Shown: positions 1-7,937 of the stretch, in pieces | Numbering within the stretch: the first letter of the stretch is position 1 | Layout of the letters: each line of letters opens with the position of its first letter | NCBI GenBank assembly: GCA_031268615.1 | Contig: JAIRWZ010000124.1 | Location: 1 to 8,223 of the forward strand | DNA: 8,223 nt | Direction: 5' to 3' | Origin: Actinomycetes bacterium | GTDB taxonomy: Bacteria; Actinomycetota; Coriobacteriia; WRKU01; WQUG01 | Notes under the pieces: model-generated | The model's input: only the letters and a program-made list of their open reading frames with translations | Database searches by the model: none | What the model was told of the DNA's origin: nothing | Made by a program: the position numbers and the translations under genes

Positions 1-557
1 TGGAGGGTTCGGGGAATCACATTAACAGTGGCCCTCAAAACGACGTTGCCTGTCTCATGGCAAGAGGTGCAGCTGCGTTTCTCATGTGCCGCAAAGCTCA
101 AGTCCGCCGCATGCACCGTTGATTTATGACAAGCCAGACAGTACCCGCGCGTCTGGGTCGTTAGTCCAAAGCTGACCCACAGCACAAGGGCGCTTGCGGC
201 AATAATGAGGAAGCGCGTCCATCCTCGCCCTGTTTTCACCTTTTGGAAAGGTTCTGCCGCCAGCTCTGTGGCCTGTTCTTCGCTCAGTTTGGTGAGGACC
301 TCGCCCTCTTCGTCAACCAGCGCGTACTGTTCCTTCTTATTGACGGACACCAGGACAAACATGACCACTGTGAGCAAAATGATAAACACCAACACCACCG
401 CAATGGCAACCAATAACATGAAAGTCAAGGGTGAAGAAGCTGGGTTTTTGATGGCTTCAGAAATAGTGGCCATCCTCTTGTCAAAGTCAGCCAAGGTCAA
501 TGAATTCAGGGAATCGCGCCACCACGACAGTGAAAAAATGTCTTTCAGAGAATTCAT
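1..557 (-). CDS. Membrane-anchored NapC/NirT-like c-type cytochrome (3' part missing)
   Basis: The reading frame runs leftward from an ATG at 557 and is open at the left edge, giving 185 visible codons. It has two membrane segments, at about residues 44-70 and 113-132, separated by a short acidic stretch. The second helix leads straight into CLACH (140-144), a lone His at 158 and CTSCH (163-167), then a VNVIPRT stretch. A membrane anchor followed at once by two CxxCH motifs about 20 residues apart with an intervening His resembles the entry domain of NapC/NirT/NrfH quinol dehydrogenases; that assignment rests on layout only. More hemes may follow beyond the edge. The start is well supported: AGGAGGT lies five bases upstream (569-563), and the ATG overlaps the upstream stop as ATGA, which points to translational coupling. 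The likely role is passing electrons between the membrane quinone pool and exported hemes; this is inferred. Confidence 0.88.
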   Translation of the reverse strand, partial: MNSLKDIFSLSWWRDSLNSLTLADFDKRMATISEAIKNPASSPLTFMLLVAIAVVLVFIILLTVVMFVLVSVNKKEQYALVDEEGEVLTKLSEEQATELAAEPFQKVKTGRGWTRFLIIAASALVLWVSFGLTTQTRGYCLACHKSTVHAADLSFAAHEKRSCTSCHETGNVVLRATVNVIPRTL

Positions 558-1591
558 CGCGCACCTCCTGGGTGTGCGTGGCCGGCATGACAGTTAGAGC
601 AGTCCGTTTCCTTATGACAGTTCAGACAAAGCTCACGTGACAGAGCGCCTTGCTGAATGCGCGAAGAATGTGCTTTCAGGAACCCTTTGGGGTGTGGCAT
701 GGGCAAACCGTGACAGCTATCGCACATCTTCGTATCCTTGTGGCAGGTGCCGCATTTGTTGCCCCCTGCGGCGGTTGCGGCAGATCCGTGCTGCGCAATA
801 ATGTAGGAGTCATGGGGCACCAGTGGCCCATGACAGCTGCGGCAATCTTCGGTCTTGTGGCAAGAGGCGCAGGTTGTCGTATCACCCAGGCCATGTTTCT
901 CTTTCCAATCCGCGCCGTGCGTCATCGAAAAAATCGAGGTCACACCCACCTGCGCGCTCTCTTGATCGGTCTGTTCGTCACTTGAAACGCGGTCGAGACT
1001 CGCCGATTCAGAGAGCGTAGTTACCTGCGGCGACTGCGGCGTGACGGAACCAATGTGGCAGGATTCACATTGTGCCGTAAACACCTGCTTTTGCCCATGG
1101 CAGCGTACGCATTGTTCCATAGATATCGTTTTCATCCAAGGAGCCGCAACCTCGTGAGCGGTCACACCATGACAGCTGACGCACTGCAATTCTTTGGCGC
1201 AGGTCGCGTGCGATATCCGCAAGCCATTCGCCTCAACCTGCTGGTCAGAGACAAGCGACTGATGGCAGCTTTCACACACCTGATTCGACACCGCAACGGT
1301 CGCGTCTCCCAGGGGTATCACCTGCAATACCATGCCATACATGACGCGCTGGCTCATGGCAAGTCTCTCAATCGTGCCGCCCGCCTGATGGCAACGCTTA
1401 CACGCAAGACTGCGATGCGCACCCTCCGCCTGAGTCGTCGTCTGATTTTGATGACAGCTCTCGCAGTTTGGGGTCCAAACACTGGCCGTCAGCGCCGGGA
1501 GCGCCAGCGCCGCCGCGATAACGATGACGGCAATTCCCAGTATCTGGGGAAGACGACCTTGTTTATTCGATACCTTTGCCAAGGTTTCCAT
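554..1591 (-). CDS. Dodecaheme c-type cytochrome, membrane-anchored or secreted
   Basis: From the ATG at 1591 the protein has 345 residues. One hydrophobic segment (about 14-39) acts as signal or anchor, followed by twelve CxxCH motifs, so twelve c-type hemes are predicted. The first cysteines are at about 43, 64, 106, 137, 161, 175, 241, 250, 280, 290, 322 and 331. The first pair, with a His between them, resembles the NapC/NirT entry layout also seen in the neighbouring cytochrome. A Ser/Gln/Thr-rich linker (about 180-240) separates six N-terminal hemes from six C-terminal hemes. The C-terminal six form three successive modules of CxxCHK, a short gap, then CxxCH, the first two continuing into a Pro-His segment. 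An extra Cys at about 131 is outside any motif. The role is probably electron transfer across or outside the membrane; substrate unknown. The frame stays open to an ATG at 1654. GGAGG abuts the 1591 ATG with no spacer, so a TTG at 1582, nine bases after it, is a serious alternative start. Confidence 0.9.
   Translation of the reverse strand: METLAKVSNKQGRLPQILGIAVIVIAAALALPALTASVWTPNCESCHQNQTTTQAEGAHRSLACKRCHQAGGTIERLAMSQRVMYGMVLQVIPLGDATVAVSNQVCESCHQSLVSDQQVEANGLRISHATCAKELQCVSCHGVTAHEVAAPWMKTISMEQCVRCHGQKQVFTAQCESCHIGSVTPQSPQVTTLSESASLDRVSSDEQTDQESAQVGVTSIFSMTHGADWKEKHGLGDTTTCASCHKTEDCRSCHGPLVPHDSYIIAQHGSAATAAGGNKCGTCHKDTKMCDSCHGLPMPHPKGFLKAHSSRIQQGALSRELCLNCHKETDCSNCHAGHAHPGGAR
563..569 (-). 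promoter_or_regulatory. Strong Shine-Dalgarno for the two-helix membrane cytochrome
   Basis: AGGAGGT on the minus strand, five bases before the ATG at 557. It lies inside the last codons of the upstream dodecaheme gene and, with the ATGA overlap, fixes the start of the downstream cytochrome. Confidence 0.85.
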
Positions 1592-2945
1592 CCTCCGCGG
1601 CAGATGAATCCGCATCCAATACATCACTGTGTGCCAAAGCCTCCGGATCGGCATTGGCCAGCTCTTCGCGCTGTTGACGACGCTTAGTCAAAATACGCGA
1701 GACTACATAGGCGGCAATCAAAATCAGAATAATGATAAGCGGAATACAACAGGCGCGCAGCAAGTCAGCGAGACGACGCTGCAAACCGCCAAGGCCGGAA
1801 GCGGAGGAGCCATCCAACGCAAAAATCTGAACACGACCCAAGGTAGCTTCAGCCGCCAGATAGGAATCCTGTCTGCGATTATAGGCTACACCAGACGGAT
1901 AGCTGAACTTGCCATCCTCTCGACCATAATTGCCCCACTTTTTCAAAAAATGCCCATCTTCGGGACTGAATGCCGCTACGGTAAAGTCAAACATGTCAAT
2001 GACTACAATACGGCCCGCGTCGTCAATGCAGACCGATTGGGGCAGCTGCAAGCCAGCCGGATATTTCTTCTTCAGTTCTTCCTCGTCCTGTCCACGGCTA
2101 CCGGTCATCCCCTGGTTTCCCGGATAAGCAATCTGAACCATCCAGACCTTGTCGCCCGCCTCATCATACTTTGACAGACGCCCGTTATACGAATCGACGA
2201 CGTAGACGTTGTTGTCACTGTCCAAAGCCAGGCCACTGACCAAATCGAAGTCATCCTCGCCGGTCCCTTGCTCACCTAATTTGCCTATATAGCTTCCGTC
2301 CAGCTTAAACGCCGCAAAGCCACCGCGGCTGCCCACAACCAGCATATCGTTACTGGCGGCAATCGCCTGTGGCTCGTCAATATTGAGGGTATACTGCGGA
2401 TTAAAGTTTGCGTCAAACACACGCACCAAGTCGTAGGTTTGCTCCCCCACAATAATCCAGCCGTTAGGGGCCACCGCCATACGGGTTGGATAGTTGAATA
2501 CATCTCCATTGGCATCCTGGGTCACCAGCTGCTTGAAAGACCCATTCATGTAGTACTCAATCAGGCGGAAATGGTTCGCGTCAGTTACCCAGAAACTCTG
2601 CCCATCCGGAGACACCGCCACGTCAGACGGATGCATCAGCTCATCAGGCGCCTCGCCGAAACCATAGACCGACCTAATCCATGTAATATCATTTTCTTCA
2701 GTCTTTGCGATGTTGCCGCCACCGGGTCGCAGAAAGGCATACAACAGGCCGCAGGCCAAGAACAACAGAATAATCAAAACGATTAGCACAACAGTCAATA
2801 TCGCGCGCATGCGGCTGACCGCTTTAGGGTTTTCTTCTTCACGAGTGGCCTGAACTTTGAGTTCGGGTGTCTTTGGTGTTTCTGGTGTTTCTGGTGTTTC
2901 TGGTGTTTCGGTCATCGTATCGGACTCGGTTGCCTTATCAGACAT
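1563..2945 (-). CDS. NHL-type beta-propeller protein with N- and C-terminal membrane helices
   Basis: 460 residues. The N-terminal 45 residues are polar, with TPE-type repeats at 13-28. A transmembrane helix follows at about 47-72, then a soluble region (85-378) of repeated strands in the NHL/six-bladed propeller style: HPSDVAVSPDG, YPTRMAVAPNG, LVSGLALDSDNNVYVVD, LPQSVCIDDAGRIVVID and YPSGVAYNRR. A second helix lies at about 399-416, followed by a basic then acidic tail. With both ends probably cytoplasmic, the propeller would sit outside the membrane. NHL propellers usually act as binding scaffolds, so a role in docking or assembling the cytochromes encoded next is reasonable but inferred. 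I see no CxxCH, so it is not itself a c-type cytochrome. The ATG at 2945 directly follows the upstream stop (TAAATG) and is preceded by AAAGGGGA. The 3' end overlaps the cytochrome gene. Confidence 0.88.
   Translation of the reverse strand: MSDKATESDTMTETPETPETPETPKTPELKVQATREEENPKAVSRMRAILTVVLIVLIILLFLACGLLYAFLRPGGGNIAKTEENDITWIRSVYGFGEAPDELMHPSDVAVSPDGQSFWVTDANHFRLIEYYMNGSFKQLVTQDANGDVFNYPTRMAVAPNGWIIVGEQTYDLVRVFDANFNPQYTLNIDEPQAIAASNDMLVVGSRGGFAAFKLDGSYIGKLGEQGTGEDDFDLVSGLALDSDNNVYVVDSYNGRLSKYDEAGDKVWMVQIAYPGNQGMTGSRGQDEEELKKKYPAGLQLPQSVCIDDAGRIVVIDMFDFTVAAFSPEDGHFLKKWGNYGREDGKFSYPSGVAYNRRQDSYLAAEATLGRVQIFALDGSSASGLGGLQRRLADLLRACCIPLIIILILIAAYVVSRILTKRRQQREELANADPEALAHSDVLDADSSAAEDGNLGKGIE
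1592..1596 (-). promoter_or_regulatory. Shine-Dalgarno that leaves the dodecaheme start ambiguous
   Basis: GGAGG on the minus strand touches the ATG at 1591 without a spacer, which is poor geometry. The in-frame TTG at 1582-1580 would sit nine bases downstream, an ordinary distance. The site lies within the 3' end of the beta-propeller gene, so either start overlaps that gene. Confidence 0.5.
2866..2910 (-). repeat. Five tandem 9-base units encoding Thr-Pro-Glu-type repeats
   Basis: On the plus strand the unit is GGTGTTTCT: one diverged copy (GGTGTCTTT), three perfect copies and one copy ending in G. Read on the minus strand it encodes repeated TPE triplets in the cytoplasmic N-terminus of the propeller protein. 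Because the unit is a multiple of three, copy-number change would keep the frame. Confidence 0.9.
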
Positions 2946-3680
2946 TTATTTCCCCTTTAACTGTGCCAAACCTGCCAAACCTTCTTCGTCGTCCGGCAGG
3001 AACTTCAGTCCCGCTTCAAAATCCTTCTTCGCGGCTTTTGTGTCGCCTTCTTCCAGCTCAATCTGCCCGCGACGTATCAGGGCGCTACCATCCTGCGGAT
3101 ATCCCTCAATAAAGATGCTCAAGTATTCCAGTTCTTTGTCCGCTTCCCCACGGTCAGCATAGATTTCTGAGAGCGCCAAAGCCGACGCGTAATAGTTTGC
3201 CGGCACGCCGTAGGCGCGCGCCCAGTTCGTGTTTTCTCCTTCGATGGAGAGCTCCTGCTCGTAGGCTTCCATCAGACGACTCATCACCTGCTCATATTGA
3301 GCAATCGCCTCATCAACCTTATTCTCTTTCATCAGCAAGTAAGCATCAGCGTAGTCCAAAGCCTGGGACCGCAAAACATCCAGCTTTGCATCCCGGGCCT
3401 GTTGCAAAACATCGCGAGCATCGGTCATTTTGCCCTGGTCAGCCAAGCGCATCACCAAATCGCCATAGTCTTGAGCGGTACCATTCACGCTAATATTGCG
3501 CCGCGCCTCACTCACATCTAAATCGTTGATTGTTTGGGGAGTCTTTTCAAAACTGACGACACCACCTAGCACCGCAAAAACACCGGTCAGTAGCGCGCCA
3601 ATGATAACCAATCCAATGGCCAGCAATAAAATCTGTATGACGCGGTCCGAGAATAAACTGCCTTTCTTTACAGAATCCAT
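2946..3680 (-). CDS. Membrane-anchored tetratricopeptide (TPR) repeat protein
   Basis: 244 residues and the first gene of the operon. A single transmembrane helix at about 14-41 is followed by helical repeats. TPR-like helix pairs are visible at about 69-100 (YGDLVMRLADQGKMTDARDV), 106-138 (ALDYADAYLLMKENKVDEAI), 163-197 (YYASALALSEIYADRGEADK) and 198-231 (ALIRRGQIELEEGDTKAAKK), each with the Gly/Ala and aromatic pattern of the family. No enzymatic motif is seen. TPR proteins mediate protein-protein contact; here the domain probably lies outside the membrane and may help assemble the propeller and cytochromes encoded downstream, by inference from the operon. The ATG at 3680 has GGAGG five bases upstream (3690-3686). 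The stop abuts the start of the propeller gene. Confidence 0.88.
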   Translation of the reverse strand: MDSVKKGSLFSDRVIQILLLAIGLVIIGALLTGVFAVLGGVVSFEKTPQTINDLDVSEARRNISVNGTAQDYGDLVMRLADQGKMTDARDVLQQARDAKLDVLRSQALDYADAYLLMKENKVDEAIAQYEQVMSRLMEAYEQELSIEGENTNWARAYGVPANYYASALALSEIYADRGEADKELEYLSIFIEGYPQDGSALIRRGQIELEEGDTKAAKKDFEAGLKFLPDDEEGLAGLAQLKGK

Positions 3681-3730
3681 GTACGCCTCCGCATATGACC
3701 TGCCCCCTCTGCATCAAAAATGCCCGCTCC

Positions 3731-3739
3731 AGTTTAGCA
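3731..3739 (-). promoter_or_regulatory. Candidate extended -10 promoter for the TPR/propeller/cytochrome operon
   Basis: On the minus strand TGCTAAACT fits an extended -10 (TGn followed by TAAACT, four of six matches to TATAAT). Transcription would start near 3724, leaving a leader of about 45 bases before the ATG at 3680. No good -35 box was found at the usual spacing, so the call depends on the extended motif and its position in the divergent gap. Confidence 0.35.
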
Positions 3740-3783
3740 CAAAACGGCGCACTACCGTCCAGTCACGTATTCTCTCAATATTG

Positions 3784-3789
3784 TAAACT
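3784..3789 (+). promoter_or_regulatory. Weak -10 candidate for the FKBP lipoprotein gene
   Basis: TAAACT on the plus strand, the same hexamer used by the opposing candidate promoter in this 146-base divergent gap. It would give a leader of about 30 bases that contains the ribosome binding site. An 8-base palindrome, CAATATTG (3776-3783), lies directly upstream. No -35 box is recognisable. Confidence 0.22.
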
Positions 3790-3810
3790 AATGGAACGAA
3801 CTATGTTATG

Positions 3811-3818
3811 AGGAGGAG
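3811..3818 (+). promoter_or_regulatory. Shine-Dalgarno of the FKBP lipoprotein gene
   Basis: AGGAGGAG, eight bases before the ATG at 3827. It is among the strongest ribosome binding sites in the window and settles the start. Confidence 0.85.
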
Positions 3819-3826
3819 ACGCGAAG

Positions 3827-4351
3827 ATGAAAAAAGTACTACCGATAATTCTTTGCCTATGTCTGGTCATGGTAGGCGCAGGAATAACTGGCTGTCAGCG
3901 CAGCGACAACATCGAAGATGAAGTCAAGGCCGCATTGGACAAAAAAGCTGAAGAAGCCCAGCAAGCTGAAGAAGCAAAGAAAGCGGCGGCGGAAGAGGCC
4001 GCTCTCTATGAAGTAGATGAGTTGACCATTGAGGACACACAAAAGGGCAAGGGGCGTAAGGTGCGCGAAGGCGACACCGTTACCGTCGATTTTACGGGCA
4101 TGTATCGTGATGGCTTTGTGTACACAACTGCCAACATGGAAGGTGGACCGGCAGTTTTCACAGTCGGCAAGCACGAGGTGCTGGAAGGTTGGGAGCTGGG
4201 GGTCATCGGCATGCAGGTGGGTGGCAAACGTACGGTGAAAGTACCCCCTGAGCTGGGCTATGGTGAGAACGTTCCCCACGCCACCATTCCCCCCGGAGAG
4301 ACACTAATCTACGATTTCACCTTGCTGAAAGTGGTACCCGGAAAGAAGTAG
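3827..4351 (+). CDS. FKBP-type peptidyl-prolyl cis-trans isomerase lipoprotein
   Basis: 174 residues. A lipoprotein signal peptide ends in the lipobox ITGC, with Cys23 as the predicted lipidated residue. Residues 29-60 are an Ala/Glu/Lys-rich, probably helical or coiled-coil spacer. The FKBP domain covers about 64-171, with VTVDFTGM, VLEGWELGVIGMQVGGKR, PPELGYG and IPPGETLIYDFTLLKV. FKBPs catalyse prolyl isomerisation and can act as chaperones; this one should work outside the cytoplasmic membrane. By alignment to human FKBP12, Trp59, Tyr82, Ile91 and Phe99 are kept (122, 145, 154, 164), but Tyr26 is Phe89, Phe36 is Tyr99, Asp37 is Thr100 and Phe46 is Ala109, so catalysis may be reduced. It is divergent from the cytochrome operon and may help fold exported proteins; that link is inferred. 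The family call is secure. Confidence 0.95.
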   Translation: MKKVLPIILCLCLVMVGAGITGCQRSDNIEDEVKAALDKKAEEAQQAEEAKKAAAEEAALYEVDELTIEDTQKGKGRKVREGDTVTVDFTGMYRDGFVYTTANMEGGPAVFTVGKHEVLEGWELGVIGMQVGGKRTVKVPPELGYGENVPHATIPPGETLIYDFTLLKVVPGKK

Positions 4352-4370
4352 TCGCAAGACCTGCCAGTTA

Positions 4371-5117
4371 TTATGCGCTTTTTCGAACGGCGGCGCAGAC
4401 CAACACCTCGTAGTCGGCAACGCGAGGCTTCAGTTCACGTGCGTCTATCTGCTCGAGCGGAATGCCTTCCAACCCACAGAGCGCACTGAAGGCATTGCCA
4501 TAGGCGGTCACCTCAACACTGCCCGTTGGCGGGGGGAAAGCCGCCGTCAACAGTTCCCGCAAGCCCCGCGAAGTGAAACGCCAGCGATCCCCAAAGCGGT
4601 CATCATCCCAACGACTAATCTGGCTGATACAGGGCACGGCAATCAGCGCCGTGCCACCTGGCGCCAGGATACGTGCCAGTTCGCGCAAGGCTGCCCCCAC
4701 ATCGGGCAGGTATTGCAACACGTGAGGCAGCAGCACACAGTCAACAGAGCCGTCGGCAAGGTCAGGGCAGGCGGTCAGGTCTCCCCGGATGACATCGGGG
4801 TCGTCACGCAACTGTTCGTCGGCAGCGTGGGTCAGCACGATGGACGTACTCACTTCGTGGGCTCCGAAACGAAGGGTGTAATCACGTCCGCCGATTTCGA
4901 GTACGCGGCCAGCGATTGCATCGGCATGCGCGGCCAGAAACTGGTCCAGATAATAGCGGTCAACCGGTGTGCCGGCTGCCCAACCAAAGTCCGGATTAAC
5001 CGGTTCGGGGCTGCGAAACGAGCCGAATCGGGGCAAGCGGCGGCGCAGCCTGTTGTGTATTCTGGCGAGGTTCATGTATCCAATTTCTGTCGGTTCTGAC
5101 AATTCTCCTTCTGACAT
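4371..5117 (-). CDS. SAM-dependent class I methyltransferase of a glycan cluster
   Basis: 248 residues. The Rossmann-fold core includes motif I VLEIGGR (72-78), RGDL (111-114), the strand DCVLLPHVLQYLPD (126-139) and ILAPGG (150-155), followed by PCISQISRWDDDRFGDRWRFT (a segment at 162-182). The lead-in PVDRYYLDQFL (51-61) before motif I and the GDRWRFT segment match a Methyltransf_11-type family often found beside glycosyltransferases in polysaccharide loci; this comes from memory of the family. It probably methylates a sugar or a lipid-linked glycan, acceptor unknown. The first ATG (5117) has only a weak GAGAAG upstream. An ATG at 5075 (residue 15, MNLARIHN) is an alternative, also with a weak site. 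The gene is convergent with the FKBP gene, 19 bases apart with no visible hairpin terminator, and divergent from the flippase. Confidence 0.88.
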   Translation of the reverse strand: MSEGELSEPTEIGYMNLARIHNRLRRRLPRFGSFRSPEPVNPDFGWAAGTPVDRYYLDQFLAAHADAIAGRVLEIGGRDYTLRFGAHEVSTSIVLTHAADEQLRDDPDVIRGDLTACPDLADGSVDCVLLPHVLQYLPDVGAALRELARILAPGGTALIAVPCISQISRWDDDRFGDRWRFTSRGLRELLTAAFPPPTGSVEVTAYGNAFSALCGLEGIPLEQIDARELKPRVADYEVLVCAAVRKSA

Positions 5118-5131
5118 CGCTTCTCTGTCGA

Positions 5132-5158
5132 TTCAAAATCCGTGGTTCAAAATCCGTG
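5132..5158. repeat. Two tandem 13-base repeats in the methyltransferase/flippase gap
   Basis: TTCAAAATCCGTG occurs at 5132-5144 and again at 5146-5158, with one base between (period 14). The copies are identical. They lie in the presumed leader of the methyltransferase mRNA and upstream of the flippase ATG. The function is unknown. Confidence 0.85.
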
Positions 5159-5193
5159 CCTGAAGGCGCATCGTCGGTCGGAAAAGCAGCTTT

Positions 5194-5202
5194 AGTATAT
5201 CA
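5194..5202 (-). promoter_or_regulatory. Candidate extended -10 promoter for the methyltransferase gene
   Basis: On the minus strand TGATATACT is a TGn extension plus TATACT, five of six matches to TATAAT. Transcription would begin near 5187, leaving a leader of about 70 bases that carries the tandem 13-base repeats. There is no clear -35 at 17 bases, which an extended -10 can tolerate. Confidence 0.42.
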
Positions 5203-5209
5203 TGGTGGC

Positions 5210-6877
5210 ATGGCCGCTCATCCTTTACAGAGGCTGTTGAAAAACACCGCCGCCAACAGCATTGCGCAGGCAGTTGTGATGTTGGTGGGCTTTTTTGTGC
5301 TGCCGTTGTTGATTCGGGGCTTTGGCGTGGCGGCCTACGGAACCTACGTACTGGCCGTGTCCGTGTCGAGCTGGGCAGGGCTGCTGGATTTAGGGTTACC
5401 GGCGACAGTAGTGCGTCGCGTGGCCGCCGCACAAGCAGTGGGGGCCTTGGGCCAGCTACGTGCGACGTTGCGGTCGGCCGGGGTCTTGTATGCCGCCCTT
5501 GGCCTGGCGCTGACCGCTGTTGTGGCGGGGCTGGCTTTTGCGGCAGGCGCGATTTTCCGCGTCACCCCCGGAGAAGCGCTGACCCTGCGCTGGCTGCTGT
5601 TGCTGACCGCTGGTGCGCAATTGCTGCTGTGGCCAACAGCGTTGTGCCGCGATGCCTTGTCGGGATTACAACGCTACGATTTGGTGTCAGCGCTGGTCAT
5701 CGTGGGCGCGGTGGTTGACGTCGCCGGAGTCGCCGTGGTGCTGGCCAGTGGACGCGGTCCGGTGCTGCTGGTCGCCATTCGTTTGTTTGGGCAGGCGCTG
5801 GTGTTTGCGATGGGCGCGCTGTTCGTCCTGCGCGTCGGAGCGGCGGGAGAGGGATGTGCGCGCGGGGGTACGCGGGTGGCGGGGGCGGAGCGGACAGCGG
5901 TGGCGACAGCGGAGCGGACAGCGGTGGCGGAGCGGACAGCAGCAGCGACAGCGGAGCGGACAGCGACCACAACGACGATGGCAGCAACGACTGCGGTGTC
6001 AACCTCCCCTGCCGCACTGCTGCGTGAGGCGCGCCCGCAGTTCATCCTGCAAGTCTCTGGCCTACTGTCCAAACAACAGACGGCCAAACTGATAGTCGGT
6101 ATCATTCTGGGCACCGCTGCGGCAACTTTGTTTGACGTGGCCGCAAAGTTCAACTCGCTGCTGTCCACGTTCAGTTCACTCTCGACCTCAGCAGCCACGC
6201 CCGTCATCGCCGAACTGAACGCTCTGGAGCGCCACGACTCGTTGCGCGCGCTCCTGATTTCCGGCAGTCGCGCGGTTACCGCGCTGGTCACGCCGGTCAC
6301 CTGCGTGCTGTTGCTGCTGACCGGTCCTCTCATCCGCACTTGGTTGGGCCCATCGTTTGCCGCCGCTATCCCCATTACCTTGCTATTGCTGTCCGCTCAG
6401 GCCGCCGTACCGCTCTATCAAATGGGCGACCCGGTCCTCATCGGCAAAAATCGTCTGCGCCGCTGGGCCAGGTCCGCCGTCTGTATTGCCCTGCTTAACC
6501 TGGCGCTGGCCTGGCTGGGCGTGCGTCTGTTTGGCGCGGTGGGCGCCGGCCTTGCCGCCCTAATCTGCGGCGCCATCGAGCTGCCTTGGTATATGCTCAT
6601 CGTGCGCCGGGAAACGGGCGTGTCCCTGCGTCGCTGGCTGGCAGCCGGAATTTGGCCAGCCATCCCCCTGCTGGCGCTGCCGATACTGCTCTGTCTGTTG
6701 GCGCGTCTGACCCCGCTGACGGACAGCCTGCCCGGACTGGTTACGGTCGCCGCCACCGCCATCGCAGCCTACTGGCTGGTCTTTTGGCGGGTGGGTCTGA
6801 AAGGCTGGGAGCGCAGCCTTTTGTGGAATTCCCTGCGTCATGGCTCTGACTCCGCGGAAAACGGCCAGCATGGATAA
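5210..6877 (+). CDS. Polysaccharide flippase of the Wzx/MOP superfamily
   Basis: 555 residues from the ATG at 5210. About twelve or more hydrophobic helices are spread over the whole length, starting with a typical N-terminus (LLKNTAANSIAQAVVMLVGFF, a segment at 8-28) and GAYGTYVLAVS-like second helix sequence. The layout is that of oligosaccharide or lipid-linked repeat-unit flippases, which move undecaprenyl-linked glycans across the membrane. Between the sixth and seventh helices (about residues 226-270) lies a low-complexity AERTA-rich insert encoded by a DNA tandem repeat, which is not normal for the family. The frame extends upstream to a GTG at 5156, but that GTG overlaps the second 13-base repeat and has no Shine-Dalgarno; the ATG directly precedes the conserved-looking start. 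The ATG also lacks a good site. The 3' end overlaps the next glycosyltransferase by eight bases. The exact substrate cannot be read from the sequence. Confidence 0.88.
   Translation: MAAHPLQRLLKNTAANSIAQAVVMLVGFFVLPLLIRGFGVAAYGTYVLAVSVSSWAGLLDLGLPATVVRRVAAAQAVGALGQLRATLRSAGVLYAALGLALTAVVAGLAFAAGAIFRVTPGEALTLRWLLLLTAGAQLLLWPTALCRDALSGLQRYDLVSALVIVGAVVDVAGVAVVLASGRGPVLLVAIRLFGQALVFAMGALFVLRVGAAGEGCARGGTRVAGAERTAVATAERTAVAERTAAATAERTATTTTMAATTAVSTSPAALLREARPQFILQVSGLLSKQQTAKLIVGIILGTAAATLFDVAAKFNSLLSTFSSLSTSAATPVIAELNALERHDSLRALLISGSRAVTALVTPVTCVLLLLTGPLIRTWLGPSFAAAIPITLLLLSAQAAVPLYQMGDPVLIGKNRLRRWARSAVCIALLNLALAWLGVRLFGAVGAGLAALICGAIELPWYMLIVRRETGVSLRRWLAAGIWPAIPLLALPILLCLLARLTPLTDSLPGLVTVAATAIAAYWLVFWRVGLKGWERSLLWNSLRHGSDSAENGQHG
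5885..5965 (+). repeat. In-frame higher-order tandem repeat inside the flippase gene
   Basis: GCGGAGCGGACAGCG begins at 5885, 5909, 5927 and 5951 (the third copy differs in its last base). The spacings of 24, 18 and 24 bases make a 42-base unit present twice, each unit itself an internal duplication. It encodes AERTA motifs alternating with Ala/Val/Thr. All spacings are multiples of three, so the frame is kept. Confidence 0.9.
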
Positions 6878-7937
6878 ACGAGGCGACGAGACCGTCAGAA
6901 GTGAGTACGTCCATTCCTGCACGATATCGGTCGTGATGCCCGTCTGGAATCCCGGAGCATATCTGGAAGACGCGCTGGCTTCGGTCTGCGCGCAAACCTT
7001 TGAGGATTTTGAATTGCTGCTGACTGATGACGGCAATGACGAGGCGACCCATTCGCAACTGCAAGCTTTTGTCGCAGCTGAACCCCGTGCCCGCCTGATC
7101 TCGCAGGAACACGCCGGACGCGCCGCTGCCCGCAACGCAGGAGTCGCGGCGGCGCGGGGAAGGTGGCTGGCCTTCGTCGATGCCGATGACCTGGTAGCGC
7201 CGCGCTATCTACAGGCACAGCTGGAGTCTGCCCTAAGGACAAAGGCGGACTGCGTGGTGTGCGCTTATGAGCGCTTTGACACTGCCACCGGTGCGCGCCT
7301 GACCCTGCACGACGAAGGGTCGGCGGCGTTGTATGGAACCGATATACGCCACCGTCCCGATATCCTGCTGGCGATGGATGCCAGCCTGTGCAATCACCTG
7401 TATGCCCGTCACTTGTTTTTTGATAACGACGGTGACAGCGAAATGCCAGCCGAACGCGTGCCCGTGTCACCCGCACTCATATTCCCACCTGGAAACGACT
7501 TTGAAGATTTGGCTGTCGCTTACTGTCTGGCGCTGCGAGCACACCGCATTGAAAAAGTTGACGAGCTGTTGTACCGCTACCGCGACGCGGGACCCGCGTC
7601 GGTCATGGCCGCTTGTGACGAGCGCTATCTGCAGATACCGCAAGCTCTGGGTTGTATGGTTGACTATTTTGATGCCTGCGCAGTGGAACCTGACGTACGG
7701 GATAATCTGGCGGCGCTGTGCTTCATTCATCTGCTGTCCGGACGTCTGGATGATTTTTTCGTTCAGGCGACCGCTGCGTTGCGCACGCGTTTTATCGCGA
7801 TGGCCTTTGAATTTCTCAATGTACGGTTTCCGGGATGGAGACATCTGTCCTCCGTGCGGAAAGTCTGTCCGCGTTGGGTAAAGCGCATGGTACTGACACA
7901 CCCAACATTATTGCGGCTGTATGTGTGGATGAGCTGA
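6870..7937 (+). CDS. Family 2 (GT-A fold) glycosyltransferase
   Basis: 355 residues from the ATG at 6870. The N-terminal GT2 domain has ISVVMPVWNPGAYLEDAL (19-36), LLLTDDGNDEAT (49-60) with the nucleotide-binding Asp pair, the HAGRAAARNAG segment (81-91), and the metal-binding FVDADD (102-107) in the usual place. Further on, NDFEDL (209-214) supplies the likely catalytic acidic residues and LLYRYRDAGPASVM follows as in typical GT2 enzymes. The C-terminal part is helical and not recognisable beyond that. It should transfer a sugar from a nucleotide donor in the cytoplasm during synthesis of the glycan handled by the flippase; donor and acceptor are unknown. An in-frame ATG at 6840 is possible, but 6870 gives the short ATGGATAA overlap with the flippase stop and a nearer match to the family N-terminus. 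GGAAAA upstream is a weak ribosome site. Confidence 0.9.
   Translation: MDKRGDETVRSEYVHSCTISVVMPVWNPGAYLEDALASVCAQTFEDFELLLTDDGNDEATHSQLQAFVAAEPRARLISQEHAGRAAARNAGVAAARGRWLAFVDADDLVAPRYLQAQLESALRTKADCVVCAYERFDTATGARLTLHDEGSAALYGTDIRHRPDILLAMDASLCNHLYARHLFFDNDGDSEMPAERVPVSPALIFPPGNDFEDLAVAYCLALRAHRIEKVDELLYRYRDAGPASVMAACDERYLQIPQALGCMVDYFDACAVEPDVRDNLAALCFIHLLSGRLDDFFVQATAALRTRFIAMAFEFLNVRFPGWRHLSSVRKVCPRWVKRMVLTHPTLLRLYVWMS

Follow-up and report, generated by a model that had tools for sequence, protein, structure and literature searches.

The window analysed here is 8,223 nt long and comprises all of contig C133 of a Coriobacteriia metagenome-assembled genome (MAG; 1.07 Mb in 157 contigs, 62% complete). 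On its minus strand it carries four genes that encode a membrane-anchored TPR protein, an NHL beta-propeller, a membrane-anchored dodecaheme cytochrome (MHC12) and a second membrane multiheme cytochrome, which we call the partner. These genes form a real, conserved module, found again elsewhere in the class and also in further families of the phylum. We interpret it as the membrane-bound portion of a module for extracellular electron transfer, in which MHC12 and the partner would pass electrons across the wall to a secreted cytochrome with six or seven hemes that may polymerise, and we put the probability of this interpretation at about 0.6. Its components differ in strength: that the module exports electrons is probable, and that the secreted candidate subunit forms filaments is proposed tentatively.

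The open reading frames (ORFs) and their junctions are as described in an earlier note, which had been made from the letters of the window and had reported four overlapping or abutting genes: the TPR and NHL genes abut, the NHL and MHC12 genes overlap by 29 bases, and MHC12 and the partner overlap by 4 bases (Table 1). The hydrophobic segments, the Pfam matches and the 12 CXXCH motifs likewise agree with its description of a membrane TPR protein, a propeller held by two helices and a dodecaheme cytochrome. The longest ORF for MHC12 in the window has 366 aa and starts at 1654. Because the contig ends at position 1, nothing to the left of the window can be read.

The recurrence of the module was assessed in 59 genomes, using cut-offs of E<=1e-10 for NHL and for the secreted cytochrome, E<=1e-25 for MHC12 and E<=1e-6 for TPR. 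Homologs were found in 35 (NHL), 35 (MHC12), 36 (secreted cytochrome) and 29 (TPR) of the 59 genomes; the identity of the NHL homologs ranges from 58% down to about 30%, and the named relatives of the window's propeller belong to MAGs of Coriobacteriia or Actinomycetia. The best 46 of the 79 NHL matches, in 33 genomes, were defined as strong. Co-location was counted among the matches listed, which for MHC12 extend down to about E 5e-70 and include the weak secreted-cytochrome matches in part, those near modules having been kept, so that the count is uninformative on copies elsewhere. A TPR gene lies within 10 kb of 40 of the 46 strong NHL matches, in 39 cases on the same strand and within 500 bases, and the same distance separates 38 of the 46 from a secreted cytochrome and 37 from a listed MHC12 gene. 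All three accompany the propeller gene in 26 cases, from 22 genomes. For the 33 weaker NHL matches the corresponding numbers are 4 (TPR), 6 (secreted cytochrome) and 14 (MHC12), and it should be noted that some NHL matches are close to contig ends. A strong NHL match is present in 33 of the 34 genomes that have MHC12 among the matches listed. The gene order recurs in many genomes and thus exceeds chance adjacency, and the co-location supports the proposal of the earlier note that a propeller and a TPR protein are here part of an electron-transfer locus. A search of the neighbourhoods in other genomes, suggested in the same note, confirmed that the four-gene order is conserved: in family f1, the order TPR-NHL-MHC12-partner is uninterrupted in seven of the eight other genomes (G001-G004 and G006-G008, not G005), with a partner of 9-10 hemes.

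The module is not confined to the class. When 296 genomes were sampled evenly from the whole phylum, MHC12 was matched at E<=1e-60 in 24 genomes, 20 of them outside the class. Twenty outside-class loci were fetched, from 19 of these 20 genomes, and in all of them MHC12 (split into two ORFs in L097) is adjoined by a partner with 8-13 CXXCH motifs; an NHL protein is encoded in 14 of the 20 loci, and a match to the secreted family (E<=1e-8, mostly weak) is present in 12.

This distribution also bears on the possibility that NHL and TPR serve surface-polysaccharide or envelope biogenesis and that the cytochromes are adjacent by chance. Glycan genes adjoin the module in the window, and homologs of the flippase or the glycosyltransferase lie beside the module, or beside its TPR-NHL pair, in L024, L025, L031, L034, L040 and L053, as would be expected in such a case. 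However, genomes with MHC12 and genomes with a strong NHL match coincide almost exactly, the gene order is kept, and none of the 23 genomes of the families f4, f6, f7 and f8 has an NHL, TPR, MHC12 or secreted-cytochrome match at the cut-offs used, so that we regard an accidental association as highly improbable.

In the family alignment of MHC12, the 12 CXXCH motifs are invariant or nearly so, and 11 further histidines are conserved. The family profile matched NrfH (2j7a_C) with E 1.4e-12 over positions 16-156, which cover the transmembrane (TM) helix and the first four hemes; among the next matches were the multiheme cytochromes Mtr, Hmc and c7. The gathering cut-off of PF03264 (NapC/NirT) is passed by the MHC12 homologs L024, P0175 and P0190, the last two of which had been chosen for the scan because PF03264 is precomputed for both, and MHC12 of the window itself gave no PF03264 match at E 0.01. 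Judged from its sequence, MHC12 is classed as a NapC/NrfH-type component with an NrfH-like tetraheme head and eight further hemes, and this extension could reach into the wall. It was the partner that the earlier note had called NapC/NirT-like. That description holds in part: one of six partner homologs scanned (L102) is over the PF03264 gathering cut-off, but MHC12 is NrfH/NapC-like as well, and the partner as a small tetraheme NapC was rejected, since its homologs in the class have 349-475 aa and 9-12 hemes.

The best structural relative of MHC12 being NrfH, the two membrane cytochromes might instead feed a soluble-acceptor enzyme for nitrite, sulfite, tetrathionate or fumarate that is encoded past the left edge, in the flank that the window lacks. 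Other families have further genes for proteins with 8-14 hemes near the module, and, according to PMC9686372, one multiheme cluster of the Coriobacteriia isolate Parvivirga includes a molybdopterin oxidoreductase. Nevertheless, MHC12 exceeds NrfH by eight hemes, and the seven f1 loci vary after the partner, where no multi-CXXCH gene was seen besides module members and secreted-cytochrome homologs, the neighbours not having been annotated singly. A soluble acceptor is thus considered improbable.

Extracellular electron transfer, the preferred reading, places a secreted cytochrome at the outer end of the chain. The secreted cytochromes are 355-753 aa long and have a leader that, by eye, resembles a signal peptide. 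The genome from which the window originates contains four copies, one on contig C74 beside a second TPR-NHL pair, two on C88, and one on C32 at the contig end. The position of the gene varies: its usual place in families of the wider class is between NHL and MHC12 (e.g. L038-L040), and in loci with the gene order of the window it lies upstream of TPR (L023, L027, L031, L032), after NHL (L033, L035, L036) or immediately downstream of the partner (L024 in its second module, L029, L032 and L034). The latter position corresponds to the spot just past the left edge of the window, where the earlier note had expected a small secreted multiheme protein; the four loci bear out the place, but the protein is not small.

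Fourteen secreted proteins were aligned and share six invariant hemes, one of which is usually bound by a CX4CH motif. An alignment of 56 sequences, made up of these 14 proteins and 42 homologs from the database (P0121 being the same protein as L023, and P0164 a fragment), has six or seven heme columns; the columns of extra conserved histidines likewise number six or seven, and the two numbers are equal in 51 of the 56 sequences. The seventh heme is present in 46 sequences, 44 of which also have the seventh extra histidine, and this histidine is found in none of the ten sequences without the seventh heme. The pairing matches the prediction for a chain in which all hemes have bis-histidine ligation, as in OmcS and OmcE, and we infer such ligation from it.

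Several observations weigh against the proposed function. The window itself has no secreted cytochrome. The secreted family had no sequence match in the PDB to the filament cytochromes OmcS, OmcE or OmcZ; it should be noted that likeness to a solved filament cytochrome is not a defining feature, because OmcS and OmcE share no sequence similarity with each other (PMC9473688). The AlphaFold (AF2) monomer of a secreted protein has a pLDDT of 49, too poor for heme geometry. Concerning the electron source, all 18 genomes tested encode the cytochrome c assembly family PF01578, a point in favour of the proposed function. The quinol step is weakened in that MqnA/D was found in none of 12 genomes of the order and MenD was over the cut-off in none of 18 genomes (weaker matches may be other thiamine-diphosphate enzymes); the control genomes were positive in 7 of 14 cases for MenD over the cut-off and in 4 of 14 for MqnA/D, and several of the genomes tested for quinone genes are incomplete. 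A UbiA-type prenyltransferase is present in 12 of the 14 genomes of the order (G000-G013), which also have NapC/NrfH-type cytochromes, so that a quinone made by salvage of a precursor is possible, although UbiA has other roles too.

The cultured relatives described in PMC9686372 provide points on both sides. Quinones were undetected in two Anaerosomatales isolates, which also weakens the quinol step. Isolates of this order have a Gram-positive wall, and porin-cytochrome complexes (MtrCAB) are characterised by an outer-membrane beta-barrel porin. In favour of the proposed function, Parvivirga is an obligate Fe(III) reducer that forms pili-like appendages only with ferrihydrite; these are 0.8-0.9 nm thick, compared with about 2.5 nm for OmcZ filaments, which speaks against a filament of the secreted cytochrome. 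Anaerosoma has pili-like appendages and many multiheme cytochromes, yet is no Fe(III) reducer. Parvivirga and Anaerosoma have in common a cluster with an MtrA homolog and two multiheme cytochromes that oxidise quinol, and the authors attribute Fe(III) reduction to another cluster. The module is present in G017 and G024, and if these are the Parvivirga and Anaerosoma strains, it does not confer Fe(III) reduction on its own.

An alternative that retains the export of electrons is that the secreted cytochrome acts as a monomeric or wall-bound terminal reductase, which TPR and NHL merely hold at the membrane. Gram-positive surface reductases such as OcwA act as monomers. The lack of a sequence link or a usable structural link to filament cytochromes fits this alternative, as do the thin appendages of Parvivirga and the suggestion, made for clusters of Dethiobacter alkaliphilus, that NHL and TPR proteins mediate complex assembly (PMC10376724). 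On the other hand, hemes and extra histidines are equal in number and leave no heme spare for an open site, which is less like a catalytic reductase, and the presence of four secreted copies in one genome also counts against this alternative. A monomeric reductase has to be taken seriously, but we would not bet on it.

The electron-transfer module that we favour could operate as follows. The NrfH-like head of MHC12 would take electrons from quinol, perhaps made by salvage, the electrons would run along the eight further hemes of MHC12 and then along the hemes of the partner, and they would cross the wall to reach the secreted heme chain. The TPR and NHL proteins would form a membrane-held platform and are the best candidates for proteins that capture, orient, dock or polymerise the secreted chain. 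Nearby Wzy_C and flippase genes might decorate the surface cytochrome with glycan. The module bears on how cytochrome filaments are built and on how electrons pass through monoderm walls without a porin. Its TPR and propeller proteins accompany one kind of secreted heme chain in many genomes of the phylum, which singles them out as candidate assembly factors, and the constancy of the module makes the question of filament assembly testable genetically.

The window adjoins a surface-glycan locus, and the arrangement methyltransferase-flippase-glycosyltransferase is kept in L040 directly before TPR. Long polytopic neighbours of the module in relatives are Wzy_C proteins, which outside the class often have C-terminal TPRs. 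Twenty neighbour proteins, some of which were no candidates for such a ligase, were scanned; 11 contain Wzy_C, in 10 cases over the cut-off, and one arginine and one histidine are conserved in all 11. Outside the class, Wzy_C is found within 5 kb of MHC12 in at least 15 of 39 cases, versus 0.89 expected, and within the class in at least 7 of 54 cases, versus about 0.5 expected; the chance expectation is based on 150 listed matches, uniform placement and, for the class, assumed genome sizes of 2 Mb. Thus, Wzy_C (O-antigen-ligase) genes lie near MHC12 more often than expected by chance. The window itself has no Wzy_C gene, and no PglL_A motif was found at E 0.001 in the 20 scanned proteins, so that the Wzy_C neighbours may be polysaccharide ligases or polymerases of the ordinary type. 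Wzy_C is found in PglL-type O-glycosyltransferases, whose genes often adjoin those of their substrates (PMC3643930), and OmcS and OmcE are glycosylated, OmcZ is not (PMC9473688). Glycosylation of the secreted cytochrome is conceivable but somewhat doubtful; the linkage with O-antigen-ligase genes offers genetic access to the kind of glycosylation reported for OmcS and OmcE. The most far-reaching version of the proposal, which we consider rather unlikely, is that the module charges and assembles glycan-coated cytochrome nanowires in single-membrane bacteria: TPR-NHL would build them from secreted subunits with six or seven hemes, MHC12 and a 10-heme partner would charge them through the peptidoglycan, and linked Wzy_C ligases would make the glycan sheath. 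If true, this would represent a porin-free nanowire assembly machine that is spread across Actinomycetota.

Divergent from the module lies a gene that the earlier note had described as an exported prolyl isomerase next to it. The FKBP gene is real and has a lipobox-like ITGC motif, but a homolog was found in only one of 53 fetched loci (L028), and the gene is an optional neighbour with weak linkage, not a conserved member of the module. Promoter-like sites between 3400 and 4450 number two, versus 0.9 expected; both are weak and on the minus strand.

Table 1. Genes and other features of the 8,223-nt window
Feature	Position	Strand	Properties
Partner, second membrane multiheme cytochrome, 3' part missing	3..557	-	185 aa, 2 CXXCH before the contig edge, two hydrophobic segments
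MHC12, membrane-anchored dodecaheme cytochrome	554..1591	-	345 aa from ATG at 1591, 12 CXXCH, one hydrophobic segment
NHL beta-propeller, predicted TM helix at N- and C-terminus	1563..2945	-	460 aa; NHL (Pfam) E 2.2e-20; hydrophobic segments 40-76, 390-422
Membrane-anchored TPR protein	2946..3680	-	244 aa; TPR_14 E 5.8e-10; one N-terminal hydrophobic segment, 7-45
Divergent intergenic region that may hold shared control elements	3681..3826	.	146 bases
FKBP-type prolyl isomerase, divergent, lipoprotein-like leader	3827..4351	+	174 aa; FKBP_C E 1.2e-24; ITGC resembling a lipobox (by eye)
Methyltransferase of adjoining surface-glycan locus	4371..5117	-	Methyltransf_11 E 1.5e-11; 47% homolog next to module in L040
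Wzx-like O-unit flippase	5156..6877	+	WZX_like E 1.9e-9 (under the model's cut-off); homologs next to module in L024, L034, L040
Family 2 glycosyltransferase	6840..7937	+	Glycos_transf_2 E 4e-30

A few additional features of the window and of related loci were observed. The GC content is 0.50-0.57 across the cytochrome module (1-4000) and 0.58-0.65 across the glycan genes (4001-7200). The flippase ORF contains, by eye, a near-repeat run (AERTAVAT-like) between predicted TM segments at about 5870-5990. In other families, large proteins with 10-14 hemes are encoded near NHL genes (L090 at 411-4520, L091, L092, L096, L105), and that of L090 carries Ig-like and fibronectin domains and is a possible surface cytochrome. 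An 18-heme protein is encoded in L030 (684-2717) upstream of a TPR-NHL pair, with two genes between. In 5 of 53 loci (L030, L035, L038, L048, L091), spermidine-synthase-like membrane proteins are encoded close to a secreted-cytochrome gene or to MHC12; in L048 the gene lies between two secreted cytochromes.

Compared with the NrfH/NapC-NirT quinol dehydrogenases, MHC12 aligns with NrfH over its N-terminal helix and its first four hemes, whereas its eight extra C-terminal hemes have no counterpart there, and no NrfA partner was noticed. The likeness to the Geobacter OmcS and OmcE filaments consists in secreted heme chains (six hemes in OmcS, four in OmcE) and, on the Geobacter side, a glycosylated surface (PMC9473688, PMC12246660); in contrast, no sequence similarity was found, and no outer membrane is expected here. 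An operon of SEEP-SRB1 (Skennerton 2017, cited in PMC12246660) also combines multiheme cytochromes, a prolyl isomerase and a propeller, but its cytochromes have 26 and 16 hemes, and the FKBP linkage is not conserved in our loci; in the genome described in PMC12246660 itself, the prolyl isomerase carries five heme motifs.

Geoalkalibacter ferrihydriticus is a diderm host. Its locus contains an OmcE homolog, a quinol-oxidising cytochrome and two NHL-repeat proteins, and differs from the module in having MtoA homologs and, in the text drawn on, no mention of TPR (PMC12016550). The clusters of Dethiobacter alkaliphilus combine secreted multiheme cytochromes, a CymA-like quinol oxidiser and NHL and TPR proteins (PMC10376724); likened by description only, they are larger, include flavoproteins and MtoA-like cytochromes, and are not described there as a fixed module. 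The suggestion in the earlier note that loci of OmcE-like filaments carry propeller and TPR partners has published support, with propellers in Geoalkalibacter and NHL together with TPR in Dethiobacter. The Anaerosomatales paper describes multiheme clusters of Coriobacteriia in a main text without the terms 'NHL' or 'TPR' (PMC9686372), and a literature search that covered few subscription papers returned no description of the fixed module, the heme/histidine pairing or the Wzy_C linkage. Therefore, as far as these sources go, clusters of NHL, TPR and multiheme proteins have already been published for Dethiobacter and Geoalkalibacter, and what is new here is this variant.

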